Below, in pieces: positions 9,898 to 15,814 of a DNA stretch of 64,000 nt; position 1 is the first letter of the stretch, and each line of letters begins with the position of its first letter. The position numbers and the translations under genes were made by a program. The stretch is from Acetobacteraceae bacterium B3987 (GTDB lineage Bacteria; Pseudomonadota; Alphaproteobacteria; Acetobacterales; Acetobacteraceae). The notes beneath the pieces are model-generated. The model saw only the letters and a program-made list of their open reading frames with translations, did no database searches and had not been told where the DNA came from. The DNA is taken from contig JAFNMF010000001.1 in NCBI GenBank assembly GCA_026537415.1, positions 606,712 through 670,711 on the forward strand, given 5' to 3'.

Positions 9898-11202
9898 ATG
9901 CACCACCTGCGCCGTGTGAGACGTTCAATGCGCTGTTGTCCGACTTCAATCTCTCCGTCCGATCCCTTCCTCCAGCTATGGTCCCTAATCGGCCATATGG
10001 CCATGCCGTGGCTCCGCCGCCATGCACTCACAAGGCTGAATCAGGGCAAAGAGGATGGCACGCGCCTTCCTGAACGCTTCGCAAAACCGGGAGCGGCAAG
10101 ACCGTCCCATGCCCGCCCTCTCCTCTGGATACATGCTGCAAGCGTAGGAGAAAGCCGCTGCGTTCTACCTGTCGCCAACCAGCTTCTGACAGACTGCCCA
10201 GATCTCACTATCCTCATGACGACTGCCACCCTGACCGGAGGGAAAACGGTGGCAGCTCATCCAGCCACTCATACAGGACGGCTAATCCATCAACTCATCC
10301 CTTATGATGCACCACATCTTCTTGAACGTTTCATAACCTATTGGCAGCCTGTCGGGCTGGTTCTCACGGAAAGTGAACTCTGGCCGGGCCTTCTTTGTCT
10401 GTGCCAAAAAAGACAACTTCCCGTCATGCTGCTCAATGGGCGACTTTCACTGCAATCTGCTGCACGTTGGCGATGGGCGGCCCCTCTACTGCGGTATCTT
10501 ATGAGACCCTGCCGCTGGATCATACCCCGAAGTCCGGAAGATCAGCAGGCCTTTGCCCGATTCGGTATCAAATCACTACTTCCCCCGGCCGACCTGAAAG
10601 AGGACACACCGCCTCTGCCCTTTGATGAAACCGAAGCCTCTATCCTTCGCAGGCAGTTCGGGCAGCGACCCATTTTTGTGGCGGCCTCAACACACCCGGG
10701 CGAGGAAGAGATCATCGTAGAAGCAACACGAAAAGCCCAACAAAAACAGCCTGACCTGCTTACCATCATTATTCCTCGTCATCCTGAACGAGGGCAAGAA
10801 CTAGCACAACACCATCAGGCCCCGTGTCGTTCTAAAAAACAGTTCCCTCACCCACAGGATGATTTATGGATTGTGGATACACTAGGAGAGGTTGGTCTTT
10901 TCTTTCAACTGGCCGACCGTGTCTTTATCGGCAACTCCCTCATCCCCCCTGGCGGAGGGCATAATCCCTTGGAATCCCTTCATTTCCAACGCCCTACAGC
11001 TATCGGTCCCTATATGCAGAACTGGACCGACCTTTGTAGCCGCTATGCAACCTCACTTCACCGCATCAAAGATACAGATGCCCTCGCACACTGGCTAACG
11101 GTCCAGCACCTATCCATTCCACGCCCCCCCAAAAGGAATCAAGCATGCTTATGTGCAGTTCGCCTTATTAAGGACACAGTTTTGCCTAATAAGGCATTTT
11201 GA
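9898..11202 (+). CDS. waaA: 3-deoxy-D-manno-octulosonic acid transferase
   Basis: Transfers Kdo from CMP-Kdo to lipid IVA at the inner membrane, linking lipid A to the core. The N-terminal Kdo-transferase fold is recognisable by IHAASVGE (about residue 79) with the conserved acidic residue, the ESELWPG motif, and the C-terminal GNSLIPPGGGHNPLE nucleotide-sugar region. 434 aa is normal. Upstream extension before WSLIGH is short and poorly conserved, so the exact start is uncertain; an AGAGAAGA-like site precedes the chosen ATG. The stop overlaps the lpxK start (ATGA), implying coupled translation. Confidence 0.92.
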   Translation: MHHLRRVRRSMRCCPTSISPSDPFLQLWSLIGHMAMPWLRRHALTRLNQGKEDGTRLPERFAKPGAARPSHARPLLWIHAASVGESRCVLPVANQLLTDCPDLTILMTTATLTGGKTVAAHPATHTGRLIHQLIPYDAPHLLERFITYWQPVGLVLTESELWPGLLCLCQKRQLPVMLLNGRLSLQSAARWRWAAPLLRYLMRPCRWIIPRSPEDQQAFARFGIKSLLPPADLKEDTPPLPFDETEASILRRQFGQRPIFVAASTHPGEEEIIVEATRKAQQKQPDLLTIIIPRHPERGQELAQHHQAPCRSKKQFPHPQDDLWIVDTLGEVGLFFQLADRVFIGNSLIPPGGGHNPLESLHFQRPTAIGPYMQNWTDLCSRYATSLHRIKDTDALAHWLTVQHLSIPRPPKRNQACLCAVRLIKDTVLPNKAF

Positions 11203-12182
11203 TGAGACTGATGGCCCCCTCCTTCTGGCAGAACCCTGCCCCGACCACGCTATCCAACCTCCTGCTGCCCTTCAGCAAAGTAACGGGATTCCTGACACGG
11301 CGACGGCAGCACCAACCCTCGCTCAAACTACCGGTCCCCGTTCTCTGCTGCGGCAACATCACCGTGGGAGGGACTGGCAAGACGCCCATGGTCCTGCATC
11401 TGCTCCAACAGCTAATGCGGAGAGGTCGCACCCCTCATGCCATCACGCGTGGTTATGGTGGACGCTCCGGAAAAACGGGGCTGATTAATCCCGAGCTAGA
11501 CAATGCCATTGACGTCGGAGATGAAACCATATTGCTTGCCCGCCTGGCTCCCACATGGAGAGGGCCAGACCGGCAGGCGAGTGCCCTACAGGCCATCGCT
11601 GCGGGAGCGGACTGTCTGGTAATGGATGACGGGTTGCAGGACCCTTCTCTCCATAAGGATATGTCCATACTGATTGTGGATGGCCCGGCTGGGCTGGGCA
11701 ACCAACGACTGCTTCCCGCCGGACCATTACGGGAGTCCCTCTCCGACATTCTGCCACGGCTACAAGCAATGGTGATTTTCGGCGAAGACCGCCAACACAT
11801 TGCCAACCAAATTCCCCAGTCTCTCCCTGTCCTGAAAGGGATACTCTCCCCCAGCACGGGCATCCATAAACTACGGGGATTTCAGATTATCGCCTTTGCT
11901 GGGATTGGCCGCCCACAAAAATTCTTTTCCACCCTTCAGGATGCCGGCCTCACCCTACTTCGGACACTCACGTTCCCTGATCATCACATTTATTCAGATC
12001 GTGAACTACAGCAGCTAGCCCAGCTGGCACATGCGCCGGATACCATCCTGGTAACGACCGAGAAGGACTACGTTAAGCTCCCCTCTCTTTTCCAAAATTT
12101 CGTCATCAGCCTCGACGTGGAACCTCGCTGGACCAACCCTGCTATCGCTGATGAACTTATTGACCATTTTCTGGCGAACTAG
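11199..12182 (+). CDS. lpxK: Tetraacyldisaccharide 4'-kinase
   Basis: Phosphorylates the 4' position of the lipid A disaccharide to form lipid IVA, the acceptor for WaaA. The P-loop-like VGGTGKTP motif (about residue 57), TRGYGG, and the VMDDGLQ/DPSLHKD segment characteristic of LpxK are present; 327 aa is full length. It overlaps waaA by four bases. The next gene of the expected lipid A cluster, lpxL, is in the same orientation but 2.7 kb away, separated by an AT-rich cassette on the other strand. A weak hairpin (12205-12220) follows. Confidence 0.93.
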   Translation: MMRLMAPSFWQNPAPTTLSNLLLPFSKVTGFLTRRRQHQPSLKLPVPVLCCGNITVGGTGKTPMVLHLLQQLMRRGRTPHAITRGYGGRSGKTGLINPELDNAIDVGDETILLARLAPTWRGPDRQASALQAIAAGADCLVMDDGLQDPSLHKDMSILIVDGPAGLGNQRLLPAGPLRESLSDILPRLQAMVIFGEDRQHIANQIPQSLPVLKGILSPSTGIHKLRGFQIIAFAGIGRPQKFFSTLQDAGLTLLRTLTFPDHHIYSDRELQQLAQLAHAPDTILVTTEKDYVKLPSLFQNFVISLDVEPRWTNPAIADELIDHFLAN

Positions 12183-12204
12183 GAACTCTAAATCCAGATG
12201 TAAC

Positions 12205-12220
12205 GCCCTGCCAGAAGGGC
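12205..12220. terminator. Weak hairpin between convergent lpxK and the APC transporter
   Basis: GCCCT (12205-12209) and AGGGC (12216-12220) form a five-base-pair stem followed by ATCACTTTTC on the plus strand. Short stem and broken T-run make this a tentative terminator for lpxK. Confidence 0.35.
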
Positions 12221-12221
12221 A

Positions 12222-13490
12222 TCACTTTTCTTGTCCCGTCACTTTGCCTCGATCAGGAACCTTTCTGGAAAGAAGCAGCCCTACCCCGGCAAGACAGGAG
12301 CAATAAATCACCCCATACATATTAAAAAGTAACAGCATCATAAGAACGCTGATTATAGCCACCACACCGACAATAAGGCGATGGGGATTTCTATAATTCA
12401 CCCTGACAAACCCGAATGAACACAATAGATAGAGAACAAAAAAATTCTGCCCGGCCAGCTGAAGCAGCATCTTTTCACCAACACCCAGTTCATACGTTAT
12501 AAAAATTATCATGGAAAATAGAAGCCATGTTACGGTCATAGCCACTAGTGGTTTATGATCTGCATTTGTTCTTCCAATAAAATTTGGAAGAAAACCGTCG
12601 CGACCGGCAGAATAAATAGCACGAGAAGCCGACATGAAGGCCGCCACAACATTGGCTATGCTTATGAAGGCAGCAAGAACACCAACCAGCACACCGCCAT
12701 ATTCTCCAAAACTGAGATGTGCCAACTCAATAAACGGAGTTAATTTCCAACTTGCAGTATTCTCTCCGAAATACGCAACTGTCCACGCAATGAATATATA
12801 TACAGCCACAACGATAGCAAAACTGATCCAAATGGATCTAGGCATATCCCTTTTGGGGTTCTTCATGTCCTCGGCCAAAAAGGCCGTCATTTCCCAACCA
12901 GTAAAGGCAAAAAGAACGATGGGAATGGCTGATGCAATCCCCTTATAAGGTATCCCGTTACTAGGGATACCGCTCGGAACGCTCTGCCAATCCACTTCAA
13001 AAAGGTAAACAACTGCGACAGCCGATAGCCCTAGAATGATACAAGCAGCAATAGCCGTCTGTATGGCTCCGGAAATTCTCAGCCCAATAACACCTGCACC
13101 GTAGGCCAGACACATAATGAAAAATGCACCCGGTACGACAGCGATACCAGGGACGGCCTGTTTTAAATACTCTGCCCCTATGAAAGAAATAGCAGGGATA
13201 CCAAGTGTAAACGTCCCCAGAACAATCATCTCGGCCATAGAAGCAAATCTCTGACCTAATGAAGACCTGATATACCCTGTCACGCCACCTGCGCTTGGGT
13301 TATGCGCTGCAAAATATGAAAAGACATAAAGCAATGGCAGCATCAACACAGCAACTATTAGCCATGGCACATATCCCTCCTTCCCCGCTAGACTAAAACT
13401 AAGACCAGGAAGGGTTAACAGGCCTGCGCCAACAACTATTGTCACAGACAAGGCAGTCGCTACAACGACACCAATTCGATTATCGTGCAT
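12222..13490 (-). CDS. APC-superfamily amino-acid transporter, YjeH-exporter-like
   Basis: A 422-aa integral membrane protein with about twelve hydrophobic segments spread over its length. The first helix carries the unwound-helix glycine motif of the APC fold (VVGAGLLTLPG) and the third segment begins with NPSAGGV. Size and this pattern resemble the E. coli YjeH amino-acid exporter group more than importers. It begins seven bases after the YqcI-cupin gene stop, so both are one transcript. Its base composition is AT-richer than flanking lipid A genes. Inference: it exports (less likely imports) the substrate or product of the enzyme encoded upstream. Substrate unknown. Confidence 0.82.
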   Translation of the reverse strand: MHDNRIGVVVATALSVTIVVGAGLLTLPGLSFSLAGKEGYVPWLIVAVLMLPLLYVFSYFAAHNPSAGGVTGYIRSSLGQRFASMAEMIVLGTFTLGIPAISFIGAEYLKQAVPGIAVVPGAFFIMCLAYGAGVIGLRISGAIQTAIAACIILGLSAVAVVYLFEVDWQSVPSGIPSNGIPYKGIASAIPIVLFAFTGWEMTAFLAEDMKNPKRDMPRSIWISFAIVVAVYIFIAWTVAYFGENTASWKLTPFIELAHLSFGEYGGVLVGVLAAFISIANVVAAFMSASRAIYSAGRDGFLPNFIGRTNADHKPLVAMTVTWLLFSMIIFITYELGVGEKMLLQLAGQNFFVLYLLCSFGFVRVNYRNPHRLIVGVVAIISVLMMLLLFNMYGVIYCSCLAGVGLLLSRKVPDRGKVTGQEK

Positions 13491-13497
13491 TCTGCCC

Positions 13498-14544
13498 TTA
13501 CCCGCCGATTTCTGGCCTAATAATTCTGGTGGCTATTACATACAAGCAACCATGATCTCCCGCCCGTGATTTATGAAGCGTCATTGCAGGTAAAAGAAGC
13601 CTATCTCCTGCTCTACAGGTAACGTTATGTTCACCATAATAGAATGTAATTTCGCCACAAATAATGTGAAGAGTCTCATCCACATTATGATGGTGTTGTT
13701 CATGTACTCTGAATGGCGAATCATACTGTACTTCAACCGAACCAGTAGGAGGCAAAAGCTGAGAAACAACATCATCCAACACTGTCAGATCTGTTGAAAT
13801 AACCTCTACAAGATTATTCCTACCTTTATAAGTGAAAGGACATTTTTCAGATCTTGGATCATTATTTTCCTTAAGAAAATACTGCTTCCATTCAAAGTTA
13901 GATTTATCCCCATAAGCACCAAGGTCAGGAGAAGGTAATACTCCATCGAATAAAACCAGTTTTCTTCTGATTTCACGCTTAATTTTCTCAGAATTCGGTG
14001 CCCCTTCTCCTATAATGCCCTCGAATACCCAGCGAGGTTGGAATGTAATCATAAAATTCTTAGAGTATCTGCTACGCCTGACCCTATGAGAGGGCGTATT
14101 ACACACAACAAAAACAGGTTCCCCAGCAAATGAGAACTCCCACAAGTGATCATCTGGAGTTTTTGGAACATTTTCGGGCCATGCTTTTACATCAAAAAAC
14201 GATATTCTTTTAAGAAGATCCCAAAATATCCTTTCATAATTTTCAATGCCTAACTCACGCTCTTCATTAAAAAAGACAACAAGGGAGGTATTTTTTCCAA
14301 ACTTACGGGCATAGGGAAGATAACTTTGCAACATTGCCGCAAGGTTCTCTCCCGCTTTAACTGAGTCAATATCGTCCGAAATAAATCCAAATCGAATTTG
14401 ATTATTGTTAAATCCAGCCACGCCCAATGTACACGGGAAAATACGTTCTCTCTCCATGAATACCTTACTAAATTCATCATAAGATACTCTCTCCCATGAA
14501 CTCGCTAAACAGTCCTGAATTTCATTTTTATCCCAGATACGCAC
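13498..14544 (-). CDS. YqcI/YcgG-family domain fused to a C-terminal cupin (putative heme N-hydroxylase-cupin)
   Basis: A 348-aa two-domain protein starting with GTG, with GGAG 8 bases upstream. Residues ~10-240 match the YqcI/YcgG family: FPCTLG (36-41), GKNTSLVVFF (83-92), LWEFSFAGEPVFVVCNTPSH (134-153), FQPRWVFE (168-175) and YGDKSNFEWKQYFL (211-224). Family members include GntA, linked to heme-dependent N-hydroxylation of a guanidine in guanitoxin synthesis. Residues ~268-345 form a cupin with motif 1 complete (H284, H286, E290, G297) and motif 2 G313-P319-H324, giving a full His/His/Glu/His metal site. I infer oxidation of a guanidine or amine by the first domain and processing of the product by the cupin. 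The gene is strongly AT-rich against its neighbours, which suggests horizontal origin. It heads a two-gene operon with the APC transporter. Confidence 0.8.
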   Translation of the reverse strand: MRIWDKNEIQDCLASSWERVSYDEFSKVFMERERIFPCTLGVAGFNNNQIRFGFISDDIDSVKAGENLAAMLQSYLPYARKFGKNTSLVVFFNEERELGIENYERIFWDLLKRISFFDVKAWPENVPKTPDDHLWEFSFAGEPVFVVCNTPSHRVRRSRYSKNFMITFQPRWVFEGIIGEGAPNSEKIKREIRRKLVLFDGVLPSPDLGAYGDKSNFEWKQYFLKENNDPRSEKCPFTYKGRNNLVEVISTDLTVLDDVVSQLLPPTGSVEVQYDSPFRVHEQHHHNVDETLHIICGEITFYYGEHNVTCRAGDRLLLPAMTLHKSRAGDHGCLYVIATRIIRPEIGG

Positions 14545-14608
14545 AATGAATACTCCACAAATATGGGATGAATAATCTTAGATATTTCATCGTATTGTTA
14601 AAATTTAT

Positions 14609-14637
14609 ATAATACATACTTGAGATGATGAGGTAAA
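14609..14637 (-). promoter_or_regulatory. Sigma70-like promoter of the YqcI-cupin/transporter operon
   Basis: On the minus strand a -35 element TTTACC (complement of 14632-14637) and a -10 element TATTAT (complement of 14609-14614) are separated by exactly 17 bases. Transcription would start near 14602, about 58 bases before the GTG start codon. Confidence 0.5.
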
Positions 14638-14645
14638 AATTGATT

Positions 14646-14664
14646 GATAATGATAATTATTAAA
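14646..14664. promoter_or_regulatory. Near-consensus Fur box
   Basis: GATAATGATAATTATTAAA matches the classical 19-bp Fur box GATAATGATAATCATTATC at 16 of 19 positions, with the first twelve identical. It ends about nine bases upstream of the predicted -35 element of the YqcI-cupin operon. The surrounding sequence is very AT-rich (7 G/C in 60 bases at 14641-14700), so chance resemblance must be weighed. If real, it indicates iron control. Confidence 0.5.
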
Positions 14665-14804
14665 ATATAGATTGATATGTAATTTAAAATATCAAATTTT
14701 ATATGAAACTATCTTTTGTTTTACTCATATTCAATAGGGTAAGCATATAAGATATATTCATACGATAAAATTTACATGTGTAATATTTTCGAATGTACGA
14801 CTCT

Positions 14805-14826
14805 CTTATTCTGCCCGCAGAATAAG
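14805..14826. repeat. Perfect 9-bp inverted repeat at the edge of the AT-rich region
   Basis: CTTATTCTG (14805-14813) pairs with CAGAATAAG (14818-14826) around a CCCG tetraloop. No T-run follows on either strand. It sits where AT-rich sequence gives way to normal composition, about 75 bases before the lpxL start. It could be an operator, an RNA hairpin, or a relic of insertion. Confidence 0.45.
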
Positions 14827-14902
14827 CTGCAAAACGATTCGTATATCCACACACTGATCGCTCTGCCTTGACGTCTCTCTGCCAAACAGACCAAAAAGGC
14901 AC

Positions 14903-15814
14903 ATGCAGCATCATCTGGAAGCATGGGGCCTCAAGGGAATTCTCTGGTCTGCCGGGAAATTACCCGCTAGCTTCTCCTCCCGTCTGGGGGGCTTCATTGC
15001 CCGTCATATTGGCCCGCTTCTCCCCTCATCCCACATTGCAGACCTTAATCTGCAACGAGCTTTCCCAACGCTGGGAAAACAAAGCCGCTGGAAAATCATC
15101 CAAAACTGCTGGGAAAATATCGGCTCCACACTGGCTGAGCTGCCACACCTGCCGACCCTTCCTACAAACTCAGAAAGCGGTCCCGGTTGGCGTGTCTTGA
15201 ACGACCATCTGCTGCATCAAGCTCACCGAAGCGAGCGACCCGTCATTTTCTTTTCAGGCCATCTCGGTAACTGGGAACTCATGCCCCTGATCGTTGCCCG
15301 TTATGGGATGGGATTCTCACCTTTCTATCGGGCTCCCAATAACCCCTTAGTAGATCAACTCATCTGTCAGCTCCGACGTCGCATTGCCGGTGTGCCAATT
15401 TCATTCTTCCCTAAGGGGAAACAAGGCGCACGGGAAGCCGTCCGTCATCTTGCCAAAGGCGGATATCTCGGGGTTCTGGGCGACCAGAAAATGAACGATG
15501 GAATCGAAGTCTCTTTCTTCGGCCATCCCACCATGACCGCTCCAGCCGCTGCAACTCTGGCACTTCGATTCAACGCTTTAATCATTACAGGCCATGTCTG
15601 GCGAGAGGGACCGGCCCGTCTGATACTGGAAGTCACCTCCTCTCTTGATCCCCAGACTCTCATCAAACCATCCCTCTCTCGGCATGAAATGATTCGTCAT
15701 TTGACCCAATGCCTGAATGATGAACTCGAGCAATGGATCATAAAACGCCCGGAAAACTGGCTCTGGCTGCATAGGAGATGGGAGAAGTCCTATTACCAGA
15801 ATAAGAAAAAGTAA
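14903..15814 (+). CDS. lpxL: Lipid A late acyltransferase (LpxL/HtrB family)
   Basis: Adds a secondary acyl chain to Kdo-lipid IVA at the cytoplasmic face of the inner membrane. The catalytic H-x4-E motif is seen in FSGHLGNWE (about residue 119), followed by FYRAPNNP and the LGDQKMNDG segment, as in the lysophospholipid/lipid A acyltransferase family. 303 aa is normal. A weak AAGG precedes the ATG. It points the same way as waaA-lpxK and probably belonged to one operon before the AT-rich cassette separated them. The particular acyl chain and position cannot be read. Confidence 0.88.
   Translation: MQHHLEAWGLKGILWSAGKLPASFSSRLGGFIARHIGPLLPSSHIADLNLQRAFPTLGKQSRWKIIQNCWENIGSTLAELPHLPTLPTNSESGPGWRVLNDHLLHQAHRSERPVIFFSGHLGNWELMPLIVARYGMGFSPFYRAPNNPLVDQLICQLRRRIAGVPISFFPKGKQGAREAVRHLAKGGYLGVLGDQKMNDGIEVSFFGHPTMTAPAAATLALRFNALIITGHVWREGPARLILEVTSSLDPQTLIKPSLSRHEMIRHLTQCLNDELEQWIIKRPENWLWLHRRWEKSYYQNKKK

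Follow-up and report, generated by a model that had tools for sequence, protein, structure and literature searches.

A YqcI/YcgG–cupin fusion and its neighbouring transporter in an Acetobacteraceae genome: a possible minimal cassette for an N–N-bonded amino acid

The minus strand of the window, a stretch of 64,000 nucleotides from Acetobacteraceae bacterium B3987, contains a real reading frame with a GTG start which runs from position 14544 to 13498 and encodes a protein of 348 amino acids in which a YqcI/YcgG domain is fused to a cupin (13498..14544). This fusion gene and the amino acid transporter gene next to it are a two-gene cassette acquired horizontally and recently. To the reading that it is a minimal cassette in which arginine is N-hydroxylated, rearranged by the cupin to an amino acid with a nitrogen–nitrogen (N–N) bond and exported we give slightly less than an even chance, and the function regarded as most likely is a conversion in two steps that starts from free arginine, or something closely similar, and ends with the export of an N–N-bonded amino acid. 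In this scheme the N-terminal domain would, by homology, be a heme N-oxygenase with Cys38 as heme ligand; it would act on the guanidine group of L-arginine in its free form, or of a similar compound, and hydroxylate it most probably at Nδ, possibly two times. The cupin tethered to it would bind a metal, which the analogy with SznF suggests to be iron, and might, as the more tentative part of the scheme, rearrange the unstable hydroxyguanidine to an N–N-bonded amino acid, either a graminine-like diazeniumdiolate or one of the N-nitroso type. The transporter encoded by the next gene would then pump this amino acid out of the cell.

The initial annotation had described a YqcI/YcgG domain and a complete cupin in one frame of 348 amino acids. 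This observation has been confirmed, whereas the interpretation built on it is only partly supported. The Pfam family PF08892 matches residues 31–238 with an E value of 3e-65 and 220.3 bits, well above the curated cut-off of 27, and an AlphaFold2 model of the whole protein with a mean pLDDT (predicted local distance difference test) of 93.5 has an AglA-type fold followed by a cupin. The N-terminal domain, a putative heme N-oxygenase, comprises residues 1–238 (13831..14544, minus strand) and belongs to the YqcI/YcgG proteins by its AglA-type fold and by a cysteine which by homology would be the thiolate ligand of the heme, Cys38 (14431..14433, minus), aligned with Cys44 of AglA. AglA is the only solved relative of this domain found by sequence (E 4e-29), and among the 50 matches listed in a structure comparison no entries except those of AglA are limited to the N-terminal domain, which leaves room for other folds. 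The cupin comprises residues 243–340 (13525..13818, minus). Its Pfam match (residues 281–327) stays below the cut-off; the cupin barrel with an HxH...E...H pattern, formed by H284, H286, E290 and H324 (13573..13695, minus), places it in the cupin superfamily.

The heme domain was compared with AglA in an alignment of 116 rows, 68 of which are cupin-partner rows (18 fused and 50 split, with L032 left out; L numbers are labels of related loci, and coordinates after an L number are those within that locus). All 116 rows, AglA included, have a cysteine at the position of Cys38. This residue and F145, R159, Q169, R171, F174 and Q221, which correspond to Cys44, Phe152, Arg166, Gln177, Arg179, Phe182 and Gln228 of AglA, are kept in all 68 cupin-partner rows, and R193 (AglA Arg200) is kept in 66 of them. 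Another finding was that Glu218 (13891..13893, minus), which occupies the position of AglA Lys225, is present in all 68 cupin-partner and all ten SznF-partner rows, but is shared by the eight Paenibacillus rows without a cupin, by the four remaining near rows and by 22 of the 25 distant rows. For AglA the mutations K225E and K196R are reported to permit Nδ hydroxylation of free arginine, with the new glutamate holding the amino group (PMC12866846). As Glu218 sits at the very position of the first mutation, a free amino acid is predicted as substrate of the fusion, and the comparison with the two mutants suggests that the attack would occur at Nδ. The heme domain is close to the YqcI/YcgG proteins which are partnered with SznF-like proteins, both in the tree described below and by identity, which amounts to 38–41% for nine actinobacterial members (228–246 columns) and to 29% for the Tistrella member L033 as well as for AglA.

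In the cupin P265, G268, E271, Q273, D275, H281, H284, H286, E290, G297 and L318 are invariant in all 69 partner cupins, and H324, S326, Y335 and I337 are found in 68, the remaining one being gapped. The four metal ligands, loss of which would have spoken against the initial annotation, are thus kept in 69, 69, 69 and 68 (one gap) of 69. In an alignment with SznF (6vzy, E 0.06) H284, H286 and H324 coincide with H407, H409 and H448, the glutamate following the histidine ligands is aligned too, and Y335 (13540..13542, minus) coincides with Tyr459 (SznF residue numbers are those of the 6vzy chain less 20, the offset to 6m9r). SznF, to which the initial annotation had pointed, is the right comparison for the cupin. 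Computation assigns to Tyr459 a proton transfer in the rearrangement, as summarised in a review (PMC11705231). As a sequence match SznF is slightly outscored by quercetin dioxygenases and by the cupin 3d82. A serine two and a tyrosine eleven residues after the last histidine ligand are found in 68 of the 69 partner cupins (one gap) and in nine of ten weak cupin matches of other loci, those nine being SznF-like. Among 20 control segments, which came from 16 family-genome loci retrieved with the window protein and are not a random set of cupins, none has this serine and five have the tyrosine (six are gapped at that column). A profile comparison with SznF-like cupins yielded a probability of 95%; at the position of the glutamate ligand of the window-type cupins the SznF-like ones carry an arginine.

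The pairing recurs in other bacteria. The fusion, which the initial annotation took as a possible new enzyme, is not unique, a fused or next-gene cupin occurring in many Proteobacteria and Bacilli. Searches of plasmids and genomes found the whole fusion in Rhodoferax antarcticus (54–55% identity), a betaproteobacterial metagenome-assembled genome (MAG), a Variovorax MAG, Paenibacillus, Sutcliffiella and Geomicrobium. Both domains are encoded by neighbouring genes in Rhodobacterales, Bradyrhizobium, Halomonas, Xenorhabdus, Priestia and others, and split versions also occur in two members of the window's own family, Acidiphilium sp. PA and Gluconacetobacter asukensis. The locus set used for counts consists of 87 loci (the window plus L028–L113), of which 18 are fused, 51 split and 18 without such a cupin. 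As the best 80 of 163 relatives were retained, in a ranking against the fusion that works in favour of loci with a cupin, the 69 of 87 with a cupin are not a frequency. The split genes overlap by 4 nucleotides at stop and start in 35 of 51 loci and lie at most 30 nucleotides apart in 48, gaps which rest on a mechanical choice of start codons. Ten of the 18 cupin-less loci lie near a gene for an SznF-like protein (nine actinobacterial ones and the Tistrella tistrellabactin cluster), and the other eight are from Paenibacillus, where the gene in L077:1578-2978 adjoins a DUF1989 gene. Less biased samples indicate that most YqcI/YcgG genes are without such a cupin: PF08892 occurs in 22 of 398 genomes of the phylum (23 places), with a cupin within 1.5 kb flanks only in the window's genome; 299 genomes of the family yielded eight matches to the YqcI/YcgG part, three with a cupin beside it; and 299 genomes of the class of Sutcliffiella yielded 75, about 15 of which have a cupin piece there, some with internal stops.

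In a tree of 92 of the 116 rows, calculated by a quick method with long branches flagged and after removal of 24 near-duplicates (L032 had been left out before), the window and the three further proteobacterial fusions form a group (support of 99 in the Shimodaira–Hasegawa-like approximate likelihood ratio test, SH-aLRT) inside a proteobacterial cupin clade of 30 rows (95). The larger set to which these belong also holds a clade (97) made up of the nine actinobacterial rows with SznF partners. Fusion requires three changes on the trees, this one and a second of 60 rows; a single origin is nevertheless compatible with the data (p of the approximately unbiased test 0.197), and the idea of repeated independent fusion was dropped. 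The match on plasmid pTM2 of Tistrella (L033), at first taken as a distant fusion, turned out to be the tistrellabactin cluster, where a gene for an SznF-like protein is followed by a YqcI/YcgG part joined to the start of a nonribosomal peptide synthetase (NRPS), which is not a YqcI–cupin fusion. Tistrella mobilis KA081020-065 holds both systems, this pair of GrbD/GrbE type on pTM2 and, on NC_017956.1 (L050), a YqcI–cupin–APC cassette of the split kind, next to a divergently oriented gene for a regulator of the Lrp type.

The transporter gene of the window (12222..13490, minus; PF13520, E 1e-32) begins 7 nucleotides past the stop codon of the fusion, and the two genes are probably in one operon. 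Its product is an APC-family amino acid transporter which is YjeH-like and a probable exporter. The model NF008245 for YjeH-type methionine/branched-chain amino acid transporters is the best of 21 NCBIfam families, although its 145.1 bits do not reach the cut-off of 284; YjeH itself is an exporter. Exporters at the other loci were found by clustering of mechanically called open reading frames within 6 kb, and the neighbourhoods of part of the loci were read by eye. A likely exporter is present in 67 of the 69 cupin loci: 25 have an APC transporter, one an APC and a LysE transporter 4 kb away (L061), 20 an MFS transporter, 16 a divergent LysE exporter, and in the remaining five a second transporter of MFS type is accompanied by ATP-grasp genes. 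Except for the second, distant LysE gene of L061 all adjoin the YqcI–cupin pair, and the MFS-type genes of L052 (no Pfam match) and L036 (below the MFS_1 cut-off) were counted by clustering. No exporter was found in L068 and in L032, where on the Acetobacter pasteurianus plasmid pAP1342-3 an IS1380-type element interrupts the YqcI/YcgG gene, with the cupin after it (L032:6150-8828). The exporter clusters of the cupin loci are absent from all 18 cupin-less loci. As two other cupin-less YqcI/YcgG genes (L005 and L006) have a neighbour of APC or LysE-like type, export probably extends more widely through the family.

Other neighbours vary. Regulators of the Lrp/AsnC type occur in 21 loci, 17 of them divergent upstream, in L028 and L034 upstream on the same strand and in L067 and L098 beyond the transporter; beside the window cassette there is none. 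Three Paenibacillus loci have a pair of ATP-grasp genes each, and clustering assigns a single one to L052 (a short contig) and to L070. The YqcI–cupin pair stands with ATP-grasp and MFS-type transporter genes in L036:4734-9541, L052:554-4003 and L070:7122-10850 (Paenibacillus, Xenorhabdus and a Rhodobacter MAG), which suggests that such loci build a peptide from the modified amino acid. The best NCBIfam match of both L036 ATP-grasp proteins is PRK02186, followed in one by dapdiamide A synthase and in the other by alanine-anticapsin ligase and then dapdiamide A synthase, all below their cut-offs. In 20 loci, from Bradyrhizobium and Gluconacetobacter asukensis, the genes for MFS transporter, YqcI and cupin are joined by one for a protein of 251 amino acids (L093:3898-4650), which matches nothing in Pfam, NCBIfam, PHROGs or PDB at the limits applied. 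The plasmid cassette of Rhodoferax antarcticus (L028:10402-11942) is followed by a gene for a LysE exporter and by one resembling 2-oxoglutarate-Fe(II) oxygenases, whose Pfam match stays under the cut-off.

The cassette lies in a stretch (12183..14902) between lpxK (11199-12182, plus) and an lpxL-type acyltransferase gene (14903-15814, plus). In all ten congeners examined the fusion is absent and lpxK and lpxL are adjacent, with 2–47 nucleotides between match ends, from which it follows that the cassette was inserted between them; loss from every congener would explain this less simply. The fraction of guanine plus cytosine (GC) is 0.39 and 0.46 in the fusion and transporter genes (0.32 and 0.41 at third positions), 0.53 and 0.56 in the two flanking genes and 0.55 in the window, and the AT-rich stretch upstream of the cassette up to the lpxL-type gene (14545..14902) has 0.29. 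A defence system and a phage origin were considered and rejected, as the fusion has no match in PADLOC or PHROGs and the APC protein only a single weak PADLOC match, to a transporter.

Other fates of the substrate have to be weighed against the proposed rearrangement. If only the N-hydroxylation mattered, hydroxyarginine itself would be the exported product, serving perhaps to inhibit arginase or as an antimetabolite, and the role of the cupin would be to stabilise or channel it. The exporter-type genes beside the cupin-less L005 and L006 fit such a role, but a passive domain needs no metal ligands, and these are kept along with E271, Q273, D275 and H281 (69 of 69), so that we regard it as improbable. 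We rate equally low an oxidative cleavage of the hydroxyguanidine by the cupin which, as in nitric oxide synthase, would leave an amino acid resembling citrulline and set free nitrite or nitric oxide. The oxygen-using quercetin dioxygenases, best solved-structure sequence matches of the cupin, speak for it, while the conserved Ser326 and Tyr335 resemble SznF-like and not control cupins, and the dedicated transporter suggests a product worth exporting.

A substrate unlike arginine, such as lysine or some other amine, which would undergo a different N-oxidation before the cupin step, is similarly unlikely. What weighs against arginine is that transporters from four different sets are used and that the position of AglA Lys196 varies, counter to a simple transfer of the AglA mutant result: it is Lys in the window, Gln or Lys in fused, mostly Phe or Leu in split and Arg in SznF-partner rows. 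On the other side F145 and F174, whose counterparts sandwich the arginine chain in AglA, and Q169, which orients the guanidine, are kept in all 68 cupin-partner rows. The lowest probability is given to a zinc cupin of the PyrN/RHS1 kind, which would join an N-hydroxy amino acid and a second amine in a redox-neutral N–N bond formation. In these enzymes (PMC8664883) the ligand spacing equals that of the window cupin and the cupin works with an N-hydroxylase, as proposed for the fusion. Their N-hydroxylases are flavin enzymes, unlike the heme-type domain predicted here. PyrN and RHS1 need a ligase resembling methionyl-tRNA synthetase, and neither this nor another activating ligase is encoded by the window protein or its neighbouring frames, although ATP-grasp genes occur in five relatives. 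Such ligand spacing is moreover common among cupins, and RHS1 is not among the best 60 of 68 cupin sequence matches listed.

For the proposed conversion of arginine a more far-reaching picture can be drawn, which we hold more tentatively than the cassette itself. The fusion might be a one-polypeptide N–N-bond synthase whose thiolate-heme N-oxygenase and bare cupin together turn free L-arginine into a free diazeniumdiolate or N-nitroso amino acid without an assembly line, the pump releasing a diffusible antimetabolite, nitric oxide donor or metal ligand, in a mobile system of Proteobacteria and Bacilli which in some lineages would yield peptides by way of ATP-grasp enzymes. ChmM had not been brought to activity in vitro, and for the route from arginine to an N–N bond by way of YqcI/YcgG and cupin enzymes the short fusion would place both proposed steps in one testable protein. 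That it recurs in both of these groups together with a transporter from one of four sets indicates the release of some metabolite so far uncharacterised, and the cassette suggests a very compact route to make and release an unusual amino acid. The YqcI/YcgG–cupin–transporter pattern is a simple genome-mining rule for further cases.

Among known relatives of the heme domain the initial annotation had named GntA. The fusion does not belong there (NF041366, 64.6 bits with a cut-off of 145), and AglA and ChmN are relevant instead. AglA/AlpD of argolaphos, DcsA, GntA and Mhr24 belong to the same YqcI/YcgG family (for AlpD see PMC8976061). AglA shares the fold, the position of the Cys heme ligand and pocket residues with the window protein, but covers residues 1–238 only, acts on phosphonate-linked arginine and has a lysine in place of Glu218. 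The streptozotocin N-nitrosourea synthase SznF/StzF likewise combines an N-oxygenase and a C-terminal cupin in one protein, and H284, H286, H324 and Y335 align with its cupin. Its N-oxygenase is a diiron heme-oxygenase-like domain, whereas that of the fusion is predicted to be of heme type; the diiron domain is absent, since residues 1–238 are AglA-type, residues 243–340 are cupin and 348 amino acids are too short.

The same pairing of a YqcI/YcgG heme arginine N-oxygenase with an SznF-type cupin is known from ChmN and ChmM (chalkophomycin) and GrbE and GrbD (gramibactin, L-graminine). According to PMC10849742 ChmN binds heme, mono- and dihydroxylates L-arginine and is proposed to feed ChmM, an SznF homologue without diiron-binding residues which retains the cupin; no activity had been seen with purified ChmM, and 107 genes of ChmN homologues lie near SznF homologues of this kind. 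GrbE/GrbD and their Tistrella homologues are tied to the arginine-derived graminine (PMC9679993 and PMC10391617), and YqcI/YcgG genes in diiron-cupin NRPS operons appear in a survey of 2010 (PMC2922099). Among the papers listed in searches of open-access literature, which leaves most subscription papers outside, none deals with a fusion of YqcI/YcgG and a bare cupin or with such a pair linked to an exporter. The SznF-partner loci examined share the heme-domain residues of the window fusion, Glu218 included. In the ChmN/ChmM and GrbE/GrbD systems the cupin lies within a large SznF homologue surrounded by NRPS and polyketide synthase genes, whereas the neighbours in the window are lpxK, the APC transporter and the lpxL-type gene, and the window-type system has a bare cupin of about 100 amino acids, fused or in the next gene, and a transporter, with no assembly line beside it. 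Its cupin has a glutamate ligand, which the SznF-like partners are without. As a heme YqcI/YcgG protein and an N–N-forming cupin had already been proposed to act together in trans in ChmN/ChmM and GrbE/GrbD, the initial view of an independent solution has to be given up, and the window cassette is a stripped-down form of this known idea.
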